Below are positions 20,136-34,261 of a DNA stretch of 64,000 bases, piece by piece. The notes below the pieces were generated by a model. The model saw only the letters and a list, made by a program, of their open reading frames with translations, was not told where the DNA came from and ran no database searches. Source of the stretch: Variovorax paradoxus B4 (GTDB taxonomy: Bacteria; Pseudomonadota; Gammaproteobacteria; Burkholderiales; Burkholderiaceae_C). The translations under genes were made by a program, and so were the position numbers. Where the stretch lies: assembly GCF_000463015.1 (NCBI RefSeq), contig NC_022247.1:3658001-3722000 (forward strand). Direction: 5' to 3'. Every line of letters starts with the position of its first letter. Within the stretch, counting starts at the first letter, position 1.

Positions 20136-21044
20136 TCAGTCGCGCAGGGACCGGTGGGTGAGTGCCATGAAGAGCTGCTCGAGGTCGTGGCGGCCGAACT
20201 CGGCGTGGCGCACCTCGATGCCTTCGGCCTCCAGGGCCTGCAGAACCGGACCGGGGCCGGTGCCTTCGCGCAGGTGAATGCGCCAATGCGCGCCGCCCTG
20301 CTCCACCGTGCCAAAGCGCGAGAGCATCTGCGCGTCGAGCCCGTCGGCCGCCAACGTGAGCAGCATCGCGCTCTTCGACAGCAGTTCCTCGAGCGCGCCT
20401 TCGCGCAGCACGCGGCCATGGTCGAGGATGGCCACGCGGTCGGCAATGGCCTCGATCTCTTCCATGTAGTGCGAGGCATAGATCACCGCCGCACCCTGCT
20501 GCGCCAGGCTCTTGATGGCGTCGAGGATGAAGGCGCGCGACTGCGGATCGACGCCCACCGTGGGCTCGTCGAACAGCATCAGCTCGGGCTCGGGCAGCAG
20601 CGCGATCGCCAGGTTGAGGCGGCGCTTGAGGCCGCCCGAGAGCCGCTCGGCGCGCACGCCGGCGAACTGTTCGAGCTGGGCAAAGTGCGTGCAAGCGTCG
20701 ATGCGCTCCTTCTTGCGTGCGCCGGCGAGGCCGCCCGCCGCGGCGAAGCATGCGAGGTTCTCGGCCACGGTGAGCATCGGATAGAAGGCCTGGTCCTGCG
20801 GCGCTACCGCGATGCGCGTGGGTGCCTTGGCGCGCACTTGCTGCAGCGGCTGGCCGTCGATGCGGATCTCGCCCGACTGCACGGCCAGTGCGCCCGACAG
20901 ATGCGAGATCAGCGTGGTCTTGCCCGCGCCGTTGGGGCCGAGCAGGCCCATCACGCAGCCCCGGGGCACCGCGAGCGAGACGTCGGCCAGCGCGGCCGAG
21001 TCGGCGTGCGGATAGCGGTGGCCTAGGTTCTTCAGTTCCAGCAT
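20136..21044 (-). CDS. ABC exporter ATP-binding protein
   Basis: ABC ATPase of 302 aa with Walker A GPNGAGKTT, signature LSGGLKRRL, Walker B LMLFDEP and H-loop ASHYMEE. A C-terminal extension of about 70 residues is typical of drug/lipid exporter ATPases. It pairs with the adjacent ABC-2 permease. The ATG at 21044 gives an MLELKNLGHRY start, and the ribosome site is weak. The 260-bp structured repeat ends 39 nt upstream of this start. Confidence 0.9.
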   Translation of the reverse strand: MLELKNLGHRYPHADSAALADVSLAVPRGCVMGLLGPNGAGKTTLISHLSGALAVQSGEIRIDGQPLQQVRAKAPTRIAVAPQDQAFYPMLTVAENLACFAAAGGLAGARKKERIDACTHFAQLEQFAGVRAERLSGGLKRRLNLAIALLPEPELMLFDEPTVGVDPQSRAFILDAIKSLAQQGAAVIYASHYMEEIEAIADRVAILDHGRVLREGALEELLSKSAMLLTLAADGLDAQMLSRFGTVEQGGAHWRIHLREGTGPGPVLQALEAEGIEVRHAEFGRHDLEQLFMALTHRSLRD

Positions 21045-21083
21045 CGGGCTGCTTGCCGCTCTTGTTCGGGGCGCTGCTGTTCC

Positions 21084-21343
21084 TGTTCGGGGCGCGTGCA
21101 CAGGCCACCGGGTACTCCCCTCCGCGAATGTCCCCCGCCTTCGGCTCCTCCTTGATTTCGCTGCGGGGAGCACCCGATGCCCTGTGCACCTGGGCACGCT
21201 CTGGGTGCACAGCCGATCAACGACCGCTCCGCATAACGCTCCCGTCGATGGGGTGCCTTGCGCAGCGAAATCAAGGAGGAGGCCGCAGGCCGGGGGACAT
21301 TCGCGGAGCAAGGTACCCCGTCGGCGGGAGCGCGCCCCGAACA
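21084..21343 (-). repeat. Structured intercistronic repeat, copy 1
   Basis: This 260-bp element fills the 332-bp gap between the BtrH-like gene and the ABC ATPase gene. Its ends are inverted, TGTTCGGGGCGCG and CGCGCCCCGAACA. Arm A (21110-21175) is closed by GGGTACTCCCC / GGGGAGCACCC. Arm B (21250-21319) is its inverted counterpart, closed by GGGGTGCCTTGC / GCAAGGTACCCC. Both arms share GCGAATGTCCCCC, a small apical hairpin, TCCTCCTTGA and TTTCGC. The centre holds a further 9-bp inverted repeat, CTGTGCACC / GGTGCACAG. Homology with copy 3 runs on about 19 nt past the right end. No protein-coding pattern and no target-site duplication were seen. Confidence 0.9.
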
Positions 21344-21376
21344 ATGCCCCACGCGACGAACAGAAGAAGATCCCAT

Positions 21377-22357
21377 TCAGGCAACAACGGCCCTGAGGTC
21401 GCGAAAGAAGGTTTCTTCCTGCTGCGCCTGCTCGCGTAGCTTGCCGGCCAGCGCAGCGGGATCGACCGGCTCTCGGCCCTTCACCATGCGCGCTGCCTTC
21501 AATGCGAACGCTCGCCAGCCGTCGCCGATGGCGATCAGCCGCTCGGACATCTGCTGCAGCTGCGGCTTGTCGAGCAGCTGCGCCGCCTCCTGCAGGAAGC
21601 CCGCGTAGATGAAGCGGAATCCCGCCCCGCCCGTGCCGATTTCTTCCTGCATGCGCACCACATGGCCGATGAAATCGACACTGCGCGGATCGCCCGGCGG
21701 CAGCTTCTGCATGCGCCTGGCCAGCGTGCGCATGCCGCGCACGCCGACGATGGGAACCGGCGCGAGCATGGTGCGCACCGTCTTTCGGATCGCCTTGGTC
21801 ACCGATGCCGCATCGACCGTCTTGCGCTCGATGGCCTGCGGGTAGTACATGAGGCCCTTGGGCGCGAGCACGCCCTTGGCGAAGCGCGCACGCGAAAGAT
21901 CGGCGCTGGCGCAGCGCACCGGTTCTTCGAACACCGGGTCGCTGATCAGGTAGTCGTCGCCGTCCTTGCCGTACACCAGCAGGTTGTGCGCATTGAAGTG
22001 GAAGCGCATGTTGGGCGGAAAGTACGGCAGCCAGTAGACCGAGGTCTGCAAGCCCACGATCTGCCCGCCCGCGAGCAGCGCATCGAGGCGCTGCGCACCG
22101 GCCTCGGCGCTGCGGAAGGTCTCGAAGCGAAAGCGCGCGGCCATCGGCGCCAGGAGGCCCTTGATGATGGCCTTGGGCGGCATGCGGTACGAGATGAGCG
22201 GCAGACCCGAGAGCTTGATGAATGGCAGGTAGGCGAACGACAGCGCCGACGACAGGCCGAGCGCCATGCTCTCGGTCATGGGCACGCCGTGGTGGCGCAT
22301 GAGGTTCGAGATGACACCGCTTTCGCAATGCGCCGCTTGTTGGTGTTCGAATTTCAC
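21377..22357 (-). CDS. BtrH N-terminal domain protein, putative acyltransferase
   Basis: Papain-fold protein of 326 aa like the N-terminal domain of BtrH, the acyltransferase that moves an acyl group from an ACP to an amine in butirosin synthesis. A likely triad is C11 (HCESG), H124 (FNAHNLLVYG) and D140 (YLISDP). The C-terminal half is helical. The GTG start overlaps the preceding stop (GTGA). Its position among ACP, ketosynthase and exporter genes suggests it transfers the finished acyl chain from the ACP to an acceptor before export; that step is inference. Confidence 0.8.
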   Translation of the reverse strand: MKFEHQQAAHCESGVISNLMRHHGVPMTESMALGLSSALSFAYLPFIKLSGLPLISYRMPPKAIIKGLLAPMAARFRFETFRSAEAGAQRLDALLAGGQIVGLQTSVYWLPYFPPNMRFHFNAHNLLVYGKDGDDYLISDPVFEEPVRCASADLSRARFAKGVLAPKGLMYYPQAIERKTVDAASVTKAIRKTVRTMLAPVPIVGVRGMRTLARRMQKLPPGDPRSVDFIGHVVRMQEEIGTGGAGFRFIYAGFLQEAAQLLDKPQLQQMSERLIAIGDGWRAFALKAARMVKGREPVDPAALAGKLREQAQQEETFFRDLRAVVA

Positions 22358-22749
22358 GGCAGGCCCTGCAAGGTGGAAACGGGAAGCCCCAGCGCCTCCG
22401 AATAGCGCGCCAGATGCTTCTGCGGCAGCGCTGCGAAGTGCTTCGGCTTCAGGTGGCGCCGCACGCGCCATTGCCAGAAGCCGCTGGTCTGCGAGAGCAG
22501 CGCCACGTCCATGCGGCGCTCGTACATCCAGTATTCGAGCGGCGACGCAAGCCCCCGGGCCACGCGTTCCTTCGCGTCCCGGGCCTGCTCGACCAGCACG
22601 TCGACCGCGTGGCTGGTGACGATTTCCTCCGCCTCCCAGCCGCGCGAGCGGGTGGTGACCACGCGGCCCTGCGCGTCGCGCGCGTACATGAGCTTGGCGT
22701 GGCCGTCGAGGGTGGCGTTGCCTTCTTGCGGAACGGCGTCGAGGTCCAT
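22354..22749 (-). CDS. Conserved-looking small protein of unknown function
   Basis: Protein of 131 aa with no recognised domain. It begins MDLDAVPQEGNATLDGHAKLMYARD. The middle is charged and helical (VDVLVEQARDAKERVARGL). The C-terminal part, GFWQWRVRRHLKPKHFAALPQKHLARYSEALGLP, could be a helical carrier- or DNA-binding-like region. It has no signal peptide or membrane helix. It starts 1 nt after the DarB-like stop and its stop overlaps the BtrH-like start, so it is an integral cluster member. Confidence 0.7.
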   Translation of the reverse strand: MDLDAVPQEGNATLDGHAKLMYARDAQGRVVTTRSRGWEAEEIVTSHAVDVLVEQARDAKERVARGLASPLEYWMYERRMDVALLSQTSGFWQWRVRRHLKPKHFAALPQKHLARYSEALGLPVSTLQGLP

Positions 22750-22750
22750 G

Positions 22751-23884
22751 TCACACAGCTTCCATGTAGATGAAGCCGCTCGAGAAGCGGCCGCTTTCGG
22801 GCACGAACATCAGCAGCTTGTGGCCGGGCTTGATACGGCCCGAGCGGAACAGTTCGTCGAGCATGATGTAGGGCGATGCCGATCCGGTGTTGCCCTTGGT
22901 CGCGAGGTTGCTGAACCAGCGCTCGCGCGGAATGGCAAAGCCCATCGACTCGAGGCAGCGGCTCACGGGTTCGACGAAATAGCCGGACGACAGGTGCGGC
23001 AGGAACCAGTCGACGTCCGCTGCCTTCAGGCCGCGCTTCCCGACGATGGCCGCCAGCGGCTCGCCCAGCGTGGCGCGCACGATGTTCTCGTTGAGCAGGC
23101 GCACGTCCTGCTTGACGGCGAAGGTCGACTCGCGCCGCCAGTCTTCGGGATCGGTGCGCGCCCAGCCGTCGAGCCCGCCCTCGGCATTCTTGTCGGCGCC
23201 CGCATACATGCACACCGGCAGCTCGTGAGCGGCGGAAGACAGGTCGATCCATTCCACGCGCAGCGACAGCGGGCCGCGCGGCTCGCGCTCGAGCAGCACC
23301 GCGCCGGCGCCGTCGGAAAGCATCCAGCGCAGGAAATCCTTCTCGAAGGCGAGTTCCGGCCGCTCTTCGAGCGCCTGGAGCTTGTGTTCGAGCTCGGCTT
23401 CGAACCTGGAGCTGCGCATCACGGCCGAGGCCAGTTCCGAGCCGGTGGCCACCGCCCGCCGCGCATCGCCCGAACGCACCGAGAGCCACGCGTGCTTGAG
23501 CGCCGTGGTACCGGCCAGGCAGATGCCCGCGCAAGCCACGACCTCGAGGCGCGGCCAGCCGAGCTCGCCATGCACCATCACCGCGTGGTTCGGCATCAGC
23601 TGGTCGGGCAGCGAGGTGCCGGTGGCGAGGCAATCCACCGGGCCGACGTCGCCGAGCGCCCGGATGGCCGAGGCGGTGAGCTGCGCATTGCTCATGGCGA
23701 GCCGGCCGGTGGCCCGGTCGATGGCGTAATGGCGCGACTGGATGCCGTTGCTGCGAAGAATCAGCCGCCGCGCGCGCGAGGCCTTGCCGCCGATGCGGCC
23801 GAGGACGTCTTCGATGTCTTCATTGCTGACCGGGGAAAAGGGCAGAAAGGCGGCGGTGCGGGTCAGGAAGACTTCAGTCGTCAT
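22751..23884 (-). CDS. KAS III-type ketosynthase, DarB-like
   Basis: Thiolase-fold enzyme of 377 aa. The nucleophile is C118 or C122 in VVACAGICLAGTTALKHA, the His is in VDWFLPHLSSGYF and the Asn in NLATKGNTGSAS, so the Cys-His-Asn set of KAS III is intact. Together with the adjacent DarA-like gene it matches the DarA/DarB pair of dialkylresorcinol synthesis, where DarB joins two beta-oxoacyl units. Its ATG lies inside the 3' end of the DarA-like gene (11-nt overlap). Confidence 0.85.
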   Translation of the reverse strand: MTTEVFLTRTAAFLPFSPVSNEDIEDVLGRIGGKASRARRLILRSNGIQSRHYAIDRATGRLAMSNAQLTASAIRALGDVGPVDCLATGTSLPDQLMPNHAVMVHGELGWPRLEVVACAGICLAGTTALKHAWLSVRSGDARRAVATGSELASAVMRSSRFEAELEHKLQALEERPELAFEKDFLRWMLSDGAGAVLLEREPRGPLSLRVEWIDLSSAAHELPVCMYAGADKNAEGGLDGWARTDPEDWRRESTFAVKQDVRLLNENIVRATLGEPLAAIVGKRGLKAADVDWFLPHLSSGYFVEPVSRCLESMGFAIPRERWFSNLATKGNTGSASPYIMLDELFRSGRIKPGHKLLMFVPESGRFSSGFIYMEAV

Positions 23885-24854
23885 AGAGGGGGGAACGGTC
23901 CGTGGCCGAGCCCGAAGGGCGTTCGAAGCTGGCTGTCATTTTAGTCAGCCACCCCTTGAACAACGGCCGCAGCAACGCCTGGAGGGTCAAGCTCACCGGG
24001 ACGACCGTGACAATGAGCACGAGCAGGAACACCACATAGAGCAGCAGCAGCGGCTTGCGCTGCCAGGCGGCGGGCCGGCCCGCCGCCATGATCAGCTTGC
24101 CCCAGAGGAAAAAGCTGCGCGTGCCGGCCTTTTCGCTGATGAGAAGCCGCGCATCGGCCTGCACCGCACCCAGACCCGCGAGCAGCGGCTGCGATCCGCG
24201 CTCCCGGTCGCCGTGCAGCGCCTCGCGCAGCGCCCGGCCGAAACGGCCCGCGCCCCGGATCTGTGCGTCGCTCAGGCCCGCGTCGGGCATACCCCAGAAA
24301 CCGCGCTTGCGGCCCCAGATCAGCCAGGCCGGCGTGGTGAAGAAGGTGGCCAGCGTCGGGCCGGGATCGGTGAGCACCACGTTGTCGATGAGGCGCGCGC
24401 CCACCGCGTCGAGCAGGCCCTTGAGCTTCTCATGGGCCAGCAGCCACATGTTGCGGCAGGCAATGACCGTGACCACCGGCTTGCCCTCGAGCAGGCGCCG
24501 GGCCAGCGGATGCTTGAGAAAGGCGACGATCGGCTGCGACGGCGCCAGGAACCACACCTGGTACGGCAGGATGACGAGGTCGAACTGCTCGTCGCCCGTG
24601 AGCGAGAGCGGCGCGAGCGGCGGCGGCTTCATGTGGGCCGACTCCGGGAACGCGTCGAAGAAGGTCAGGAACGGCCAGGGGAACGGGAAATCCGCCTCTG
24701 GGCGCAGGGTCTCGACGTGCACGGAAATCCCCGGGTCGGCCCTGAGCGGCGCGACGATCTGCTCGGCGACGCTCCCGAGCTGGCCGGTCTGCGAATAGTG
24801 GATCACCAGGACACGCTTGATGCGCGCGGCGGGGCTGGAAATGCTTGAGTTCAC
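23874..24854 (-). CDS. DarA-like dialkylresorcinol-condensing enzyme
   Basis: Protein of 326 aa with a flavodoxin-like N-terminus (RVLVIHYSQTGQLGSVAEQI) and a C-terminal hydrophobic segment (KPLLLLYVVFLLVLIVTVVP) that should anchor it in the membrane. It matches proteins annotated as dialkylresorcinol condensing enzyme DarA, which acts with DarB to cyclise and aromatise the joined chains. The GTG at 24854 is chosen because it leaves a short N-terminus and lies about 20 nt after a plausible transcription start; an ATG near 24922 would add 23 residues. It is the first gene of the cluster. Confidence 0.78.
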   Translation of the reverse strand: MNSSISSPAARIKRVLVIHYSQTGQLGSVAEQIVAPLRADPGISVHVETLRPEADFPFPWPFLTFFDAFPESAHMKPPPLAPLSLTGDEQFDLVILPYQVWFLAPSQPIVAFLKHPLARRLLEGKPVVTVIACRNMWLLAHEKLKGLLDAVGARLIDNVVLTDPGPTLATFFTTPAWLIWGRKRGFWGMPDAGLSDAQIRGAGRFGRALREALHGDRERGSQPLLAGLGAVQADARLLISEKAGTRSFFLWGKLIMAAGRPAAWQRKPLLLLYVVFLLVLIVTVVPVSLTLQALLRPLFKGWLTKMTASFERPSGSATDRSPLYDD

Positions 24855-24880
24855 TTGCTGGGGCGAGGCGGGGGCCGTCG

Positions 24881-24886
24881 AATGTA
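24881..24886 (-). promoter_or_regulatory. Candidate -10 for the DarA/DarB cluster
   Basis: TACATT on the minus strand, 26 nt upstream of the GTG start, in the TTACATTCG context common for promoters of this group. No clear -35 was found. The only other promoter candidates for the nine genes would have to lie within the terminator region beyond. Confidence 0.3.
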
Positions 24887-24950
24887 AGCCAACCCTAGCA
24901 CTGGCGCATCTGCCATTGGTCATGCCGTCGCGTCGACCCCACGAATGAAC

Positions 24951-24981
24951 AAAAAAAGGGCCGCACCCTTCGGCGCGGCCC
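24951..24981 (-). terminator. Rho-independent terminator of the glp operon
   Basis: On the minus strand GGGCCGC and GCGGCCC form a perfect 7-bp GC stem around a 10-nt loop, followed at once by seven T. It lies 35 nt after the glpV stop and separates the glycerol operon from the DarA/DarB cluster. Confidence 0.93.
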
Positions 24982-25016
24982 CTCGAGAGAGCGCTGTCCT
25001 GCAAGAAAGCAGCGGG

Positions 25017-26747
<1,731 letters not shown>

Positions 26748-26772
26748 GAGTCTGTCTCCTCGATTGAAAGCT

Positions 26773-26803
26773 TCCCCGGTTTTTTCGATCGCGGCTCCGG
26801 GGA
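26773..26803 (-). promoter_or_regulatory. Hairpin in the glpU-glpV leader
   Basis: TCCCCGG and CCGGGGA form a 7-bp stem around a 17-nt loop that contains a T-rich run, 26 nt upstream of the glpV start. It could protect the glpV message 5' end after processing or partly terminate transcription; neither is shown. Confidence 0.35.
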
Positions 26804-26842
26804 GGCGGAGAGCCGGTCGCGTCTGAAAACCAATTCCTGGGC

Positions 26843-27151
26843 CTAGCCCTTGCGCATCACCAGTGCCAGAAGAAACATCGACAGCACGAAGCTGATCCAG
26901 ATCGAGGGCTCTGCTTCGAGACTCATCCATTCCTGGAACTTGCCCGCCAGGCCGATGAAGATCAGGTTCACATAGGCCGCAGCCAGCAGCCCGATGAAGA
27001 GCCGGTCGCCGCGCGTGGTGGCAATCGGCAGCCAGCCGCGCCGCATGGTGGTGGGCGACTTGAACTCCCACACCGTCATGCCAACCAGCATGAGCGCGAT
27101 GCAGATGAAGAAAACGGCCACCGGGGTGGTCCAGACCATCCAGTCGAACAT
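26843..27151 (-). CDS. glpU: Small membrane subunit of the glycerol ABC transporter (DUF2160)
   Basis: Membrane protein of 102 aa with three hydrophobic segments (residues about 7-27, 50-70 and 83-98). It is the DUF2160 protein found between the permease and binding-protein genes in glpSTPQUV loci. Its role in uptake is not defined biochemically. It starts 16 nt after the glpQ stop. Confidence 0.88.
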   Translation of the reverse strand: MFDWMVWTTPVAVFFICIALMLVGMTVWEFKSPTTMRRGWLPIATTRGDRLFIGLLAAAYVNLIFIGLAGKFQEWMSLEAEPSIWISFVLSMFLLALVMRKG

Positions 27152-27167
27152 GTCTTTTCGCCTCCTC

Positions 27168-27980
<813 letters not shown>

Positions 27981-28031
27981 GTCGGTTGCTCCATGGCATG
28001 TTGTTCTTGTTCTTGTCGCTTTTTTGGCTCT

Positions 28032-28290
28032 TGTTCAGGGCGCGTGCACAAGCCGGCGGGTACTCCCCTCCGCGAATGTCCCCCGGCCTGCGGCCTCCTC
28101 CTTGATTTCGCTGCGGGGAGCACCCGATGCCCTGCGCACCAGGGCACGCTCTGGTTGCACGGCTGATCAACGACCGCTCTGTCCAACGCTCCCGTCGATG
28201 GGGTGCCTTGCGCAGCGAAATCAAGGAGGAGCCGAAGGCGGGGGACATTCGCGGAGCAAGGTACCCCGTCGGCGGGAGCGCGCCCCGAAA
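28032..28290 (-). repeat. Structured intercistronic repeat, copy 2
   Basis: This element fills the 319-bp gap between glpP and glpQ. Arm A is 28058-28125 (closing stem GGGTACTCCCC / GGGGAGCACCC, apical GGCC-TGC-GGCC). Arm B is 28200-28267 (closing stem GGGGTGCCTTGC / GCAAGGTACCCC, apical GCC-TTC-GGC). Compared with copy 1 the two apical hairpin types are swapped between the arms, yet each remains self-complementary. A purine-rich leader with repeated AAGAACA follows towards glpQ. Confidence 0.9.
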
Positions 28291-28299
28291 AACGGCTGT

Positions 28300-29190
<891 letters not shown>

Positions 29191-29251
29191 TGAAATACCT
29201 CCGTGCTCCGCACTGCGGTGCGAGCTTGCTTGGGGCGGCCCTGCGCTGCAC

Positions 29252-30322
29252 TCATGCCACCAACTCCTCGTCCTTGTAATAGCAGGTGTGGGTGTCGAGC
29301 ACCCGCAGCCACACGGTGTCGCCCACAGCCGGCGGCTGGTCGTCCGAGTGCAGCCGCACCTTGACCACGCCACCGTCGACCTCGGCGCTCAGCATGGCGT
29401 GCGTGCCGACGTCCTGCACCTGCTTCACCACGGCCGGCACGGCGCCGGCGGCGCCCGCGTTCGACAGGCGCAGGTACTCGGGCCGGATGCCGATCTTGAG
29501 CGCACCCTGCGGCAGTTCGCGCGTCGGCATGAGCGGCGTGCCCGCCACTTCGAGCGCGCCGTTCGCGCTCTTCGCCGAAAGAAAGTTCATGCCCGGCGAG
29601 CCGATGAAGTGGCCCACGAAGGTATGCGCCGGCCGCTCGAACAGCGCCTCGGCACTGCCCACCTGCACGGCCTTGCCGCGCGTCATCACCACCACCTCTT
29701 CGGCGAAGGTGAGCGCCTCGACCTGGTCGTGCGTCACGTAGATCAGCGTGATCTTGAGCTCGCGGTGGATCTGCTTGAGCTTGCGGCGCAGCTGCCACTT
29801 GAGGTGCGGATCGATCACCGTCAGCGGCTCGTCGAACAGCACGGCCGAGACGTCGCTGCGTACCAGGCCGCGGCCGAGCGATATCTTCTGCTTGGCGTCG
29901 GCCGCGAGGCCCGAGGCGCGCTGGTTCAGCTGGCCGCTCATGTCGAGCATTTCGGCAATCTCGCCCACGCGCTTCCTGATCTGGTCTTCCGGCACCTTGC
30001 GGTTGCGCAGCGGAAACGCGAGGTTCTCGGCCACGGTCATGGTGTCGTAGATCACCGGGAACTGGAACACCTGCGCGATGTTGCGTTCCTGCGGCGTGGC
30101 GCGCGTCATGTCGCGGCCATCGAAGGTCACCGTGCCCTGCGAGGGCACCAGCAGGCCCGAGATGATGTTGAGCATGGTCGTCTTGCCGCAGCCCGAAGGG
30201 CCGAGCAAGGCATAGGCGCCGCCATCGCGGAAGCTCATCTTGAGCGGCAGCAGCGCATAGTCGCTGTCCTGTTTCGGGTTGGGACGGTAGGCGTGGGCCA
30301 GGTCGAGATCGATGCGTGCCAT
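29252..30322 (-). CDS. glpT: Glycerol ABC transporter ATPase GlpT
   Basis: ABC importer ATPase of 356 aa with Walker A GPSGCGKTT and Walker B VLFDEP. The signature region is degenerate: the expected LSGGQ reads LAADAKQK. A C-terminal regulatory OB/TOBE domain is present. With GlpS it probably forms an ATPase heterodimer in which this subunit has the weaker signature. The ATG at 30322 is preceded by AAGGAAAC, 2 nt after the glpS stop. Not the unrelated glycerol-3-phosphate antiporter glpT of enterics. Confidence 0.9.
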   Translation of the reverse strand: MARIDLDLAHAYRPNPKQDSDYALLPLKMSFRDGGAYALLGPSGCGKTTMLNIISGLLVPSQGTVTFDGRDMTRATPQERNIAQVFQFPVIYDTMTVAENLAFPLRNRKVPEDQIRKRVGEIAEMLDMSGQLNQRASGLAADAKQKISLGRGLVRSDVSAVLFDEPLTVIDPHLKWQLRRKLKQIHRELKITLIYVTHDQVEALTFAEEVVVMTRGKAVQVGSAEALFERPAHTFVGHFIGSPGMNFLSAKSANGALEVAGTPLMPTRELPQGALKIGIRPEYLRLSNAGAAGAVPAVVKQVQDVGTHAMLSAEVDGGVVKVRLHSDDQPPAVGDTVWLRVLDTHTCYYKDEELVA

Positions 30323-30324
30323 AG

Positions 30325-31397
<1,073 letters not shown>

Positions 31398-31398
<1 letters not shown>

Positions 31399-33002
31399 CA
31401 GCGCTCCCCGTTGATCATGTAGCTGTTGTTGGTGGTGCGCGCCTGCAGCCAGGCGGCGACCTGCCGGCGCTCCTCGGCCGTGTAGCGCAGGCCGAGCTTC
31501 GAACGGCGCCAGAGCACGTCGTCGGCGCTCACGGCCCATTCGTTCTGCTGCAGGAAGCGCAGCTCGCGCTCGTGGAGCCCCGGCGCCACGGCTTCGCCCA
31601 TGTCTTCCATGGACTTGGCATCGCCGAGCAGCTCGGCCACGCGTGCGCCGTAGGCGCGTGCCAGGCGCCGCGCGAGCCGTGCGTCCAGCCATGCATGGCG
31701 CGCCTGCACCGCGGCCACGAAGCGTTCGAAATCGTCGTCGGGCCGCGTGGCGGCGCCGATCCATGCGGAAAGATCGCCGCCGGCCAGGAAGGCGCCATCG
31801 GTCCAGGGCGGACGCTGCGCGCTCGACTGGCCGAGCATCTTGCCGACCTCGTCGGCCGCGTCCTCGGCCAGCTTGCGGAAGGTGGTGATCTTGCCGCCCC
31901 ACACCGACAGCAGCGGCGCCGCGGTGGTGTTCGACTCGAGCATGTAGTCGCGCGTGACGGCCGACGGGTCGCCCGACGCATCGTCGAGCAGCGGGCGCAC
32001 GCCCGAGTAGGTCCAGACCACGTCGGCCGGCTTGACCGGCTTGTCGAAATAGCGGCTCGCCTGCATGCAGAGGTAGGCGATTTCTTCCTCGGCAATGCGC
32101 GCCGCGCCGGGATCGTCGCCGTTCAGCTCGATGTCGGTGGTGCCGATCAGCGTGAACTCGTCCTGGTAGGGAATCGCGAAGATGATCCGCTTGTCGGGGT
32201 TCTGGAAGATGTAGGCGTGGTCGTGCTCGAACAGGCGCGGCACCACGATGTGGCTGCCTTTGACCAGCCGCAGGTGCCGCGTGGCCAGCGGCTCGCCCTT
32301 GGCCGACTGCGCCACGCCGCGCAGGAACGATTCCGCCCACGGCCCCGCGGCATTGACCACGGCACGGGCGCGCACCACGCGGATGCCGCCGTCCGCGGCT
32401 TCGAGCGTGGCGGTCCAGCCGTCGGCGTCGCGTTGCGCATGGACGCAGCGCGTGCGCGTGAGTATCTCGGCGCCGCGTGCCCTGGCATCGATGGCGTTGA
32501 GCACCACCAGCCGCGCATCGTCGACCCAGCCGTCGGAATAGACGAAGCCGCGCTTGAACTGCGGCTTGAGCGGCGCACCGGCCGCATGGCTGCGCAGATC
32601 GATGCTGCGCGAGCCCGGCAGCACTTCGCGCTTGGCGAGATGGTCGTACATGAACAGGCCGATGCGGATCATCCAGGCCGGCCGCATCGATGGATCGTGC
32701 GGCATCACGAAGCGCAGCGGCCACATGATGTGCGGCGCGCTCTTGAGCAGCACCTCGCGCTCCTGCAGCGCCTTGCGCACGAGCGAGAACTCGTAGTACT
32801 CCAGGTAGCGCAGCCCGCCATGGATCAGCTTGGTGGACGAGGACGACGTATGCGAGGCGAGGTCGTCCTTTTCGCACAGCACCACGCGCCAGCCCCGGCC
32901 AGCCAGGTCGCGCGCAATGCCGCAGCCGTTGATGCCGCCGCCGACGATCAACACATCGCAATCGGTTGCCGGCAGAGGCGAATTGGAGGAGAAATCGCTC
33001 AC
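31398..33002 (-). CDS. glpD: Glycerol-3-phosphate dehydrogenase (quinone-linked)
   Basis: FAD enzyme (534 aa from the chosen GTG) oxidising glycerol-3-phosphate to dihydroxyacetone phosphate and passing electrons to quinone at the inner membrane. The Rossmann motif DVLIVGGGINGCGIARDLAG is at the N-terminus, followed by TKLIHGGLRYLEYYEF and the C-terminal DAO_C domain. The GTG at 33002 gives the usual length and lies about 40 nt after a TACAAT -10. The ATG at 33071 lies upstream of that -10 and the one at 33050 overlaps it. It is the first gene of the glpDSTPQUV operon. Confidence 0.93.
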
Positions 33003-33022
33003 AGAAGATGGGCCCGTTGGTT

Positions 33023-33054
33023 CGTGACTTCGGTCACGGAAGGGCGCCATTGTA
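33023..33054 (-). promoter_or_regulatory. glpD promoter -10 and downstream palindrome
   Basis: TACAAT (minus strand, 33054-33049) is a 5/6 -10 with no good -35. Immediately downstream lies a perfect inverted repeat CGTGAC-CGAA-GTCACG (33023-33038), where a repressor would block initiation. GlpR is the obvious candidate by location, but this palindrome does not resemble the direct-repeat-like motif near glpR. Confidence 0.45.
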
Positions 33055-33114
33055 TTTTCGCGTCTTTTCATTTGGATTCCTTTTGGCGCGATTTTCCCCC
33101 GAGTTTTCCCTTAG

Positions 33115-33142
33115 TTGGATTCGTTTTCTTTCGTTTTAAAGT
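33115..33142 (+). promoter_or_regulatory. Candidate glpR promoter with TTCGTTTT direct repeats
   Basis: TTGGAT (33115-33120), a 16-nt spacer and TAAAGT (33137-33142) make a plausible promoter for glpR. The spacer contains two copies of TTCGTTTT exactly 10 bp apart (33120-33127 and 33130-33137), on one face of the helix. DeoR-family regulators often bind short T/A-rich repeats of this kind, so autoregulation by GlpR is likely. Confidence 0.45.
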
Positions 33143-33192
33143 GACACGGCCTGTACTCTCTAGAGAGTCTTCACGCTTTCCACGACGCCTCT

Positions 33193-33960
33193 GTGAACTC
33201 CAATCCGCGCCAGATCAATCTTCTCGATACCGTGCGCACGCGCGGCTCCGTCACCGTCGAGCAGCTGGCCGATATGCTGGGCGTCACGCTGCAGACGGTG
33301 CGGCGCGACGTGCAGCGGCTGGCCGACCAGGGATTGCTCACGCGCTTTCACGGCGGCGTGCGTGTGCCGAGTTCCACCACCGAGAACATCGGCTACCAGC
33401 AACGCGAAACGCTGCATGCGGAGGGCAAGGCGCGCATCGCGCGGCGCGTGGCCGAACTGGTGCCCAACGACTGCTCGCTGATCCTCAACATCGGCACCAC
33501 CACCGAGGCCATCGCCAAGGCGCTGCTGCGCCACACCGGCCTGCGCGTGATCACCAACAACCTGAACGTGGCAACCATCCTGAGCGGCAACTCCTCGTGC
33601 GAGGTGATCGTGGCGGGCGGTTCGGTGCGCGCGCGCGACCGCGCGATCGTGGGCGAGGCCACCATCGATTTCATCCGCCAGTTCAAGGTGGACATCGCGC
33701 TGATCGGCGTGTCGAGCATCGAGCCCGATGGGTCGCTGCGCGACTTCGACCTGCGCGAGGTGAAGGTGGCGCAAACCATCATCGCGCAGGCGCGCGAGGT
33801 GTGGCTGGCGGCGGATGCGAGCAAGTTCAACCGGCCCGCGATGATCCAGCTGGGCACGCTGTCGCAGATCGACCGCCTCTTCACCGACGCGGAGCCGCCT
33901 GCGCCTTTTGCCGATCTGCTGCATGCGGCGCAGGTTCGGCTCGAGATCGCGCGCGATTGA
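33193..33960 (+). CDS. glpR: DeoR-family repressor GlpR
   Basis: Repressor of 255 aa with an N-terminal DeoR helix-turn-helix (VTVEQLADMLGVTLQTVRRDVQRLADQG) and a C-terminal sugar-phosphate sensor (LNIGTTTEAIAKALL, VIVAGGSVRARDRAIVG). By family it releases DNA on binding glycerol-3-phosphate. GTG start. It is divergent from glpD and upstream of glpK, so it sits at the centre of its regulon. Confidence 0.93.
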   Translation: MNSNPRQINLLDTVRTRGSVTVEQLADMLGVTLQTVRRDVQRLADQGLLTRFHGGVRVPSSTTENIGYQQRETLHAEGKARIARRVAELVPNDCSLILNIGTTTEAIAKALLRHTGLRVITNNLNVATILSGNSSCEVIVAGGSVRARDRAIVGEATIDFIRQFKVDIALIGVSSIEPDGSLRDFDLREVKVAQTIIAQAREVWLAADASKFNRPAMIQLGTLSQIDRLFTDAEPPAPFADLLHAAQVRLEIARD

Positions 33961-34001
33961 TTCAAATGAGAGCTCGCTCTTTTGTTCGTCGCGTGGGGCA
34001 T

Positions 34002-34261
34002 TGTTCAGGGCGCGATCCCGCCGACGGGGTACCTTGCTCCGCGAATGTCCCCCGTCCTTCGGGCTCCTCCTTTATTTCGCTACGCAAGGCACCCCATCGA
34101 CGTGATCGTTGGAAAGAGCGGTTGTTGATCGGCGGTACCCCACAGCGTGCCCCGTGTACAGAGCATCGGGTGCTCCCCGCAGCGAAATCAAGGAGGAGGC
34201 CGCAGGCCGGGGGACATTCACGGAGGGGAGTACCCGGTGATCTGCGCACACGCCCTGAACA
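34002..34261 (+). repeat. Structured intercistronic repeat, copy 3 (opposite strand)
   Basis: This 260-bp element occupies most of the 351-bp gap between glpR and glpK. It is inverted on the genome relative to copies 1 and 2 but has the same orientation relative to transcription. Arm B is 34026-34095 (GGGGTACCTTGC / GCAAGGCACCCC, apical GTCC-TTC-GGGC with one G-T wobble). Arm A is 34168-34235 (GGGTGCTCCCC / GGGGAGTACCC). Homology to copy 1 extends outward to 33983. It ends 50 nt before the glpK start. Confidence 0.9.

Follow-up and report, generated by a model that had tools for sequence, protein, structure and literature searches.

A hairpin-rich repeat element occurs three times in a 64,000-nucleotide (nt) stretch of Variovorax paradoxus B4 (contig NC_022247.1 of assembly GCF_000463015.1, positions 3,658,001–3,722,000), referred to here as the window and used as the coordinate frame below. 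Copy A, which served as the BLAST query, occupies 21084..21343 and copy B 28032..28290, both on the + strand, whereas copy C at 34002..34261 is inverted (– strand); all three lie where a sequence-only reading of the window had placed them. The adjoining genes are ordinary. Copy A is flanked by an ABC-transporter ATPase gene and a gene for a BtrH_N/DUF4872 protein, and copy B separates a pair of ABC-permease genes, which overlap in element-free relatives. Copy C has a DeoR-type regulator gene on one side and an FGGY-family kinase gene on the other, each encoded on the + strand. Alignment of the three copies displays the inverted ends and the two arms in inverted orientation described in that reading, together with its two closing-stem types, its three apical types and their exchange between arms. 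In copy A, the hairpin and outer stem of arm 1 span 21096..21189 (core 21124–21161) with the G-rich, folded strand on –, and those of arm 2 span 21237..21332 (core 21265–21304) with the G-rich strand on +, the limits of both arms being set by eye. The arm cores of copy B, located from the sequence and the arm pattern, lie at 28072..28111 (–) and 28215..28252 (+). Those of copy C, placed by eye, lie at 34041..34080 (–) and 34182..34221 (+), the latter with one substitution in its GCGAA/TTCGC stem. The arms are present as had been described but extend further, reaching about 95 nt in copy A when the outer stems are included (by eye). Beyond the ends of the element, degenerate repeats of a terminal motif, up to several units, are seen at 21044–21083 and 21344–21376 of the window and in the flanks of loci L001–L028. 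On one flank they read TGTTC..GGGCGC, and on the opposite flank they appear as the reverse complement.

The element consists of two head-to-head hairpins, the arms, each 70–95 nt long and usually ~100 nt apart. Each arm combines two fixed parts, the GCGAA/TTCGC stem and a purine-rich internal region with AT(C/A)AAGG(A/G)GGA opposite GG(G/A)GGACA, with a closing stem that is free in sequence and an apical stem that is free in both sequence and length, the apical part between the cores measuring 7 to 26 nt. We aligned 328 arms from fetched loci on their core, which was located with at most six mismatches overall. The G-rich strand carries the 5' core GCGAAAT(C/A)AAGG(A/G)GGA and the 3' core GG(G/A)GGACATTCGC; apart from the three bracketed positions, every column deviates in at most 11 of the 328 arms, a figure partly biased because many loci were chosen by the exact core pattern, a selection from which partner arms and copies found by BLAST are free. 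Compensating changes are seen at two of the pairs that form the GCGAA/TTCGC stem (GC/GC in 5 arms, GA/TC in 2 and AC/GT in 1); one of these pairs is broken in 8 arms, and a single arm carries a wobble. Across 123 doublets, the closing stems are paired within the arm at 94.6% of positions, compared with an identity of 55.5% between the two arms, indicating that the separate arms are the selected form. The doublet order –,+ recurs from Variovorax to Luteimonas, and singlets and arrays also occur. One such array, of five arms in the orders –,+,–,+,+ and resembling a bacterial interspersed mosaic element (BIME), is found in a Comamonadaceae metagenome-assembled genome (MAG; L180:4982-5687).

The family is far larger than the three copies of the window suggest. 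A BLAST search of the B4 genome with copy A, in which 40 of 79 candidates were scored, returned 28 near-full copies (82–100% identity, copy A included) and 12 partial ones. The exact arm pattern matches 33 times in this genome and its reversed form not once, and it added two single-arm copies; given these counts, the repeat is not a product of chance. Pairwise identity among the 28 near-full copies has a median of 0.86 and a minimum of 0.74, the maximum of 0.973 being reached by one pair. A covariance model of 34 arms and 33 pairs, whose recipe allows the count to be made by others, finds 74 arms in the genome. The three-copy repeat of the sequence-only reading is therefore real but was understated, in this genome and in its congeners alike. 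The search of Variovorax and its relatives proposed there gave a BLAST match in 84 of 101 congeneric genomes, with at most seven candidates scored per genome, and found the core in other Burkholderiales too. Among 24 chosen congeneric genomes, nine contain model arms (74, 112, 129, at least 150, 15, 12, 1, 1 and 1) and 15 contain none, with up to 150 candidates scored in each; the arm-free set corresponds to the 17 BLAST-negative genomes less G074 and G076, two incomplete assemblies that were omitted.

A core-pattern scan of named contigs reached beyond the genus and gave at least 118 stretches. The matches listed include Burkholderiales labelled Variovorax, Ramlibacter, Rhodoferax, Polaromonas, Hydrogenophaga, Pseudorhodoferax, Paracidovorax, Xylophilus, Aquabacterium and others, as well as Luteimonas, Lysobacter, Thermomonas, Pseudoxanthomonas, Stenotrophomonas and a Xanthomonas-labelled MAG. 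We take the carriers from Luteimonas to Xanthomonas to be one family, Xanthomonadaceae or Lysobacteraceae. In a class-wide sample, at least 6 of 369 genomes match, a lower bound set by the scoring of at most 11 candidates per genome, and two of the six, marginal with E near 1e-3 (G435 and G246), were not counted as clear. The clear matches fall in the B4 genome itself, a further genus in the same family and a pair of genera from another family. Judged by its sequence, the same hairpin core is common to two distant bacterial families. Viral contigs gave no match to the exact core pattern. In three genomes, single-arm copies (L285, L097 and L110) share an extra upstream stretch (CCAACAAATGCAGCTTC-like), suggesting a second composite repeat.

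The suggestion of the sequence-only reading that the folded form is under selection is supported by a covariation test. One arm was taken from each of 34 of the 36 stem clusters, the set omitting L100, which contains N's, and L167, which has a Variovorax-type stem with a small insertion. In these 34 arms, 88.9% of cells are paired compared with 60.7% after shuffling, and 318 cells are changed on both sides compared with 107±8. The covariation score is 0.681, as against 0.183 when shuffled and 0.11–0.14 when the partners are slid, and double changes occur in 25 of the 27 pairs of the long helix and in 5 of the 6 apical pairs. In addition, the single-strand fold of copy A has z = –12.06 for the + strand and –11.04 for the – strand.

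The wobble pairs reveal which strand is constrained. What reads as G·T on one strand reads as an A·C mismatch on its complement; a site that folds on only one strand should therefore have an excess of G·T there. Counted on the G-rich strand of 201 non-redundant arms, with both scored as neutral, interior G·T pairs number 389 and A·C pairs 52; the 121 arms without Variovorax-type stems give 214 and 35. By stem cluster, G·T is in excess in 30 of 36 and A·C in none, with 6 ties, and one arm per cluster gives 61 G·T and 9 A·C. The G-rich strand is thus the strand under folding constraint, and the G-rich strands of an element's two arms lie on opposite DNA strands. On this strand, 131 of the 201 arms are capped by a GNA triloop, 130 of them closed by C-G; GNA accounts for 131 of 146 triloops, and is found in 71 of 80 Variovorax-type arms and in 60 of the 121 others. 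GNA or GNNA loops closed by C-G together occur in 139 of 201 arms and 21 of 36 clusters. By comparison, only two arms have a GNRA loop and none a UUCG loop. GNA and GNNA loops on G-C stems make extraordinarily stable DNA mini-hairpins, as has been described (PMC4686876). The loop types favor folded DNA over RNA, a preference short of proof because related arms share loops; of the two options raised by the sequence-only reading, a structured RNA is accordingly less supported than folded single-stranded DNA.

Within an element, the apical hairpins of the arms are more often unlike than expected, a tendency observed for the Variovorax type only, and the swapping of apical types between arms that had been noted from the three copies reflects it. 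Among 72 doublets with one arm of each Variovorax type, the same apical sequence occurs in both arms in 5. Shuffling the partners within arm type gives an expectation of 13.3, and a value as low as 5 is reached in 0.08% of 5000 shuffles. The B4 genome contributes 0 of 27 (3.5 expected; 1.1% of shuffles as low) and other genomes 5 of 45 (9.3 expected; 3.8%). We rely on the within-type shuffle because each arm type prefers its own apical hairpin. A looser test ignoring arm type gives 0 of 28 in the B4 genome compared with 5.3 expected, and, for doublets in which neither apical part exceeds 13 nt, 6 of 85 compared with 16.1.

Within the purine core, all four GG runs are intact at fixed places in 317 of the 328 arms. 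Position 13 of the 5' core and position 3 of the 3' core are A/G in 288 arms, G/A in 33, A/A in 3, G/G in 2, and T/G and C/G in one each, so that the double exchange is seen 33 times compared with 3.8 expected. The exchanged arms carry 15 different immediate stems and fall in 4 of the 36 broad stem clusters, and shared descent therefore explains part of the coupling. These two positions most likely touch. Going by sequence, a quadruplex-duplex hybrid and a purine internal loop with an A·G pair would both fit the core. A parallel two-tetrad quadruplex is doubtful as a full account of it because of the coupled A/G exchange, which would be unexpected for a parallel fold with two 1-nt loops if the published rule for such folds holds.

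The elements occupy a restricted kind of site. With genes taken from our own codon-model calls, all 28 near-full copies of the B4 genome are intergenic, 22 between codirectional genes, 6 between convergent genes and none between divergent genes. Likewise, 53 named-locus doublets lying at least 700 nt from a locus end comprise 38 codirectional, 13 convergent and 2 divergent cases with none within a called gene, compared with 222, 57 and 84 for all gaps of at least 60 bp in the named loci, element gaps included. The combined 81 doublets amount to 60 codirectional, 19 convergent, 2 divergent and none within called genes. A hand count in the B4 genome shows that 17 of the 22 codirectional copies share one orientation relative to transcription, and that 17 of the 22 end 24–71 nt before the next called start codon.

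These sites are polymorphic for the element. At site B, 30 loci (the own locus included) comprise 7 that are occupied, 18 that are plainly empty with the two genes overlapping and 5 with an unrelated 76-bp repeat, the loci being the best-matching 30 of 100 genomes searched, a choice that favors occupied ones. Site A is empty in G055, with a start/stop overlap, and holds an internally deleted remnant in G082; at site C, G055 is again empty, G082 has a stub and G077 has other sequence in place of the element. Both sites look occupied in G003, G022, G032, G004 and G027, as judged from continuous BLAST matches. For the L003 and L002 sites, 10 relatives were searched. At the L003 site, five relatives were compared, of which G003, G032, G005 and G004 lack the element and the fifth carries a remnant; the L002 site is empty in three of six (G077, G060 and G024), with a half copy, a remnant and a full copy in the others. 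The ~76-bp repeat at site B (L068, L073, L074, L079 and L080) has inverted stems of its own and sits at the start/stop junction used by copy B, in tandem duplicate in L068, so that two unrelated repeat families have used one gene junction. Internally deleted remnants in three genomes (L235, L275 and L280) keep both ends and lose inner parts of the arms; those of L235 and L275 resemble each other in their junction, which by eye lies at a shared CCCCG.

Comparison with known systems reveals both likenesses and differences. MITE-like (miniature inverted-repeat transposable element) bacterial repeats such as Correia, ERIC and RUP are of a similar size class, have terminal inverted repeats and lie between genes. 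The present elements also have terminal inverted repeats in Variovorax, but no fixed target duplication was seen, and their conserved part lies inside the arms and recurs in families where the Variovorax ends are not evident. Integron attC sites are imperfect hairpins of free sequence with conserved unpaired features, read as a folded single strand. Unlike attC sites, the present elements are dispersed doublets rather than cassette arrays, and no R-box pair was noticed by eye (no integrase search was made). The organization is closest in kind to that of repetitive extragenic palindromic (REP) doublets forming hairpins (REPINs), and to this extent it is already known. As described in the REPIN report (PMC3116915), REPINs share with the present element an inverted palindrome pair as the unit, intergenic location, high copy number, a varied spacer, compensatory changes and singlets as likely remnants, and a two-armed "clover" fold was proposed there by the REPIN authors. 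The inverted palindrome doublet in intergenic space is accordingly found here as well. REPIN ends are described as conserved and as able to pair into one long hairpin (PMC3116915). Here, the arms measure 70–95 nt and contain a long invariant purine internal region, pairing within arms greatly exceeds identity between them, the arms tend to be unlike, and no association with a REP-associated tyrosine transposase (RAYT) was found. REP and BIME sequences with TnpA-REP similarly combine a strand-specific hairpin, an irregular stem, intergenic location, and mosaic pairs and arrays (PMC2817692, PMC8266576). In that literature, RAYT genes invariably have their own REPs on either side, which is not the case for the Y1 gene of the B4 genome. 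A REP is defined there as a 20–50 nt palindrome preceded by a GTAG-type tetranucleotide (PMC8266576). In the 40 nt 5' of the core, GTAG occurs in 2 of 36 cluster representatives at differing offsets (shuffled mean 4.1), while GTGG (14 of 36; shuffled 9.1) and CGTC (11 of 36; shuffled 7.5) are slightly above the shuffled level and have no single fixed place. Neither the head sequence and size of a REP, nor a flanked rayt gene (B4 genome only), nor an abundance that tracks the transposase was found. The likeness to REP/BIME elements drawn in the sequence-only reading thus stands for placement and organization but not for the transposase association.

That reading had recognized no named family, which holds for Rfam and for the open literature. 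Rfam 15 gives no match at gathering score in the window, and copy A with its flanks, searched up to E of 1, meets two microRNA families and one long non-coding RNA family, all far below their gathering scores. The core strings, searched in 5.39 million open papers (subscription papers and preprints outside the scope), match only two insect papers, a single string once in each, which we take as chance, and no description of the repeat was found in this literature. What is new here is the folding of the G-rich strand, its GNA caps, the unlike arms and the intergenic sites that are rarely divergent. By these features, the repeat resembles a hitch-hiking DNA element of a type not yet catalogued, with the fold as what is recognized.

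A REP-associated tyrosine transposase, for which the sequence-only reading had advised a search, proved not to be associated with the arms. The B4 genome has one Y1_Tnp match, and the 3.3 kb around this gene contain no arm. A Y1_Tnp match is present in 97 of the 101 congeneric genomes, exactly one in 94 of them, and all 15 genomes with no model arm carry it. The four genomes without a Y1_Tnp match all have element matches; three are incomplete assemblies, and G042, a single contig that is 99% complete, has 15 arms. In view of the missing flanking arms and of a presence independent of the element, we rejected the resident Y1 transposase as the likely mover. The B4 gene, which adjoins an apparent glutamate synthase gene (L031:1464-2160; by eye), is possibly a domesticated transposase relative without a visible repeat partner. 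Among the genes beside the three-arm locus L158, inspection by eye revealed no transposase. In a MAG, a pair of arms separated by 1.9 kb (L171:3750-5830) encloses small open reading frames and could represent an autonomous element with cargo or a chance pair; no transposase was recognizable by eye among the intervening frames (no family search was run).

Taken together, these observations make it somewhat more probable than otherwise that the repeats form a family of non-autonomous, REPIN-like intergenic elements recognized as folded single-stranded DNA; recognition in this form and movement by a trans-acting protein are what we infer. The recognized form would be the G-rich strand folded as single-stranded DNA, e.g., in an extruded cruciform or on the template of the lagging strand, and a trans-acting protein would read its purine core. 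This protein would copy or move the unit into transcribed intergenic sites, where neutral landings would survive, and unlike arms would weaken the competing long arm-to-arm hairpin.

Several observations weigh against this interpretation, in addition to the selection of loci by core pattern mentioned above. The energy minimum of a whole copy is a long arm-to-arm hairpin, so that the separate arm hairpins of the sequence-only reading are supported by the doublet comparison and not by the minimum-energy fold. Three pairs adjoining the fixed stem are unpaired in 16, 9 and 15 of the 34 arms, and the long helix is therefore interrupted there. The predominance of GNA loops weakens outside Variovorax-type stems and when clusters are counted (16 of 36), and the looser apical test over all 123 doublets finds 7 equal pairs compared with 11.7 expected, with 6.4% of shuffles as low. 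No mobilizing protein was found, the only Y1_Tnp match of the B4 genome being unassociated, and no transposase was recognized by eye beside the five-arm array (no family search was run). Furthermore, inspection of 28 flanks and five sites by eye revealed no clean target-site duplication: at sites A and B, nothing more than the short start/stop overlap is present on each side, and the flanks of the L003 and L002 sites are altered. Spread by recombination or segmental transfer instead of transposition is possible.

Among other explanations, the elements might be structured RNAs whose arms act in 3'-untranslated or intercistronic regions of transcripts as a protein-binding or stability element, the doublet guaranteeing one G-rich arm whichever strand is transcribed. 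A strand-specific fold, the placement of 79 of 81 doublets in codirectional or convergent gaps, and the shared orientation and short distance to the next start of most codirectional copies are all consistent with such a role. However, with the G-rich arms on opposite strands, a transcript would contain one G-rich and one C-rich arm able to pair with each other, the loops are GNA rather than GNRA or UUCG, no Rfam family matches at gathering score, and a range from 0 to at least 150 model arms among congeners is unlike that of a needed RNA; we regard this explanation as unlikely. An ordinary REPIN family moved by a resident RAYT/Y1 transposase would share the inverted hairpin doublet, the strand-specific fold, the irregular stem, the intergenic location, and the singlets and arrays. 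Such a family would agree with published accounts, in which REPINs are inverted doublets with a clover fold of separate arms proposed as the recognized form (PMC3116915) and TnpA-REP binds one strand only (PMC8266576). The distribution of Y1_Tnp regardless of elements, from the 15 arm-free genomes that have it to G042 that lacks it, the B4 gene without flanking arms, arms of 70–95 nt instead of 20–50 nt and the absence of a GTAG head at a fixed place make it improbable.

Still less probable is a classic MITE that has terminal inverted repeats (TGTTCRGGGCGCG in Variovorax) and depends on a DDE transposase for cut-and-paste movement, with the arms as passengers. The near-perfect short terminal inverted repeats, the nearly constant length in Variovorax and the existence of half-size forms with both ends would fit, but it is the arms that covary, and in 13 doublets from other genera the arm core is kept while the Variovorax ends are not evident by eye, L139 alone having TGTTCAGG on one side. 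In this regard, no target duplication of fixed length was seen in the 28 flanks inspected by eye or at the L003 and L002 sites, with no very young insertion in the sample, and no parental insertion sequence was found among the B4 candidates scored with the whole element (the ends alone were not searched). BIMEs have been proposed as gyrase or supercoil-relief sites. A chromosome-organizing or supercoil-relief site of benefit to the host, spread by recombination, would account for the placement after gene ends, the long inverted repeats and the conserved core; we consider it the least credible of these alternatives, since 15 congeners have no model arm, the sites are polymorphic and a double-stranded site needs no strand-specific wobble.

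The preferred reading, of a family recognized as folded single-stranded DNA, adds an apparently undescribed folded intergenic repeat family that is abundant in a common soil and plant genus. Its strand-specific wobble, DNA-type loops and arms that tend to differ lead to a sharp prediction, namely that some protein recognizes a folded single strand of DNA containing a purine core. RAYT transposases are the usual explanation for REP-like repeats. With the repeat present where Y1_Tnp has no match, and Y1_Tnp present where the repeat is missing, this family directly tests whether another mover exists. Joining the fold to the purine core, we tentatively put forward, as a doubtful proposal, that it is a mobile DNA family recognized via a fixed purine motif, GG-N-GG, hairpin, GG-N-GG, in the folded single strand, in the form of a quadruplex-duplex hybrid or G·G/A·G pairs. 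If this were true, G·G and A·G pairs could let two arms join without protein into a four-stranded synapse, and the family would combine a transposon end read by non-Watson–Crick structure, a protein common to two distant families and selection for unlike arms.

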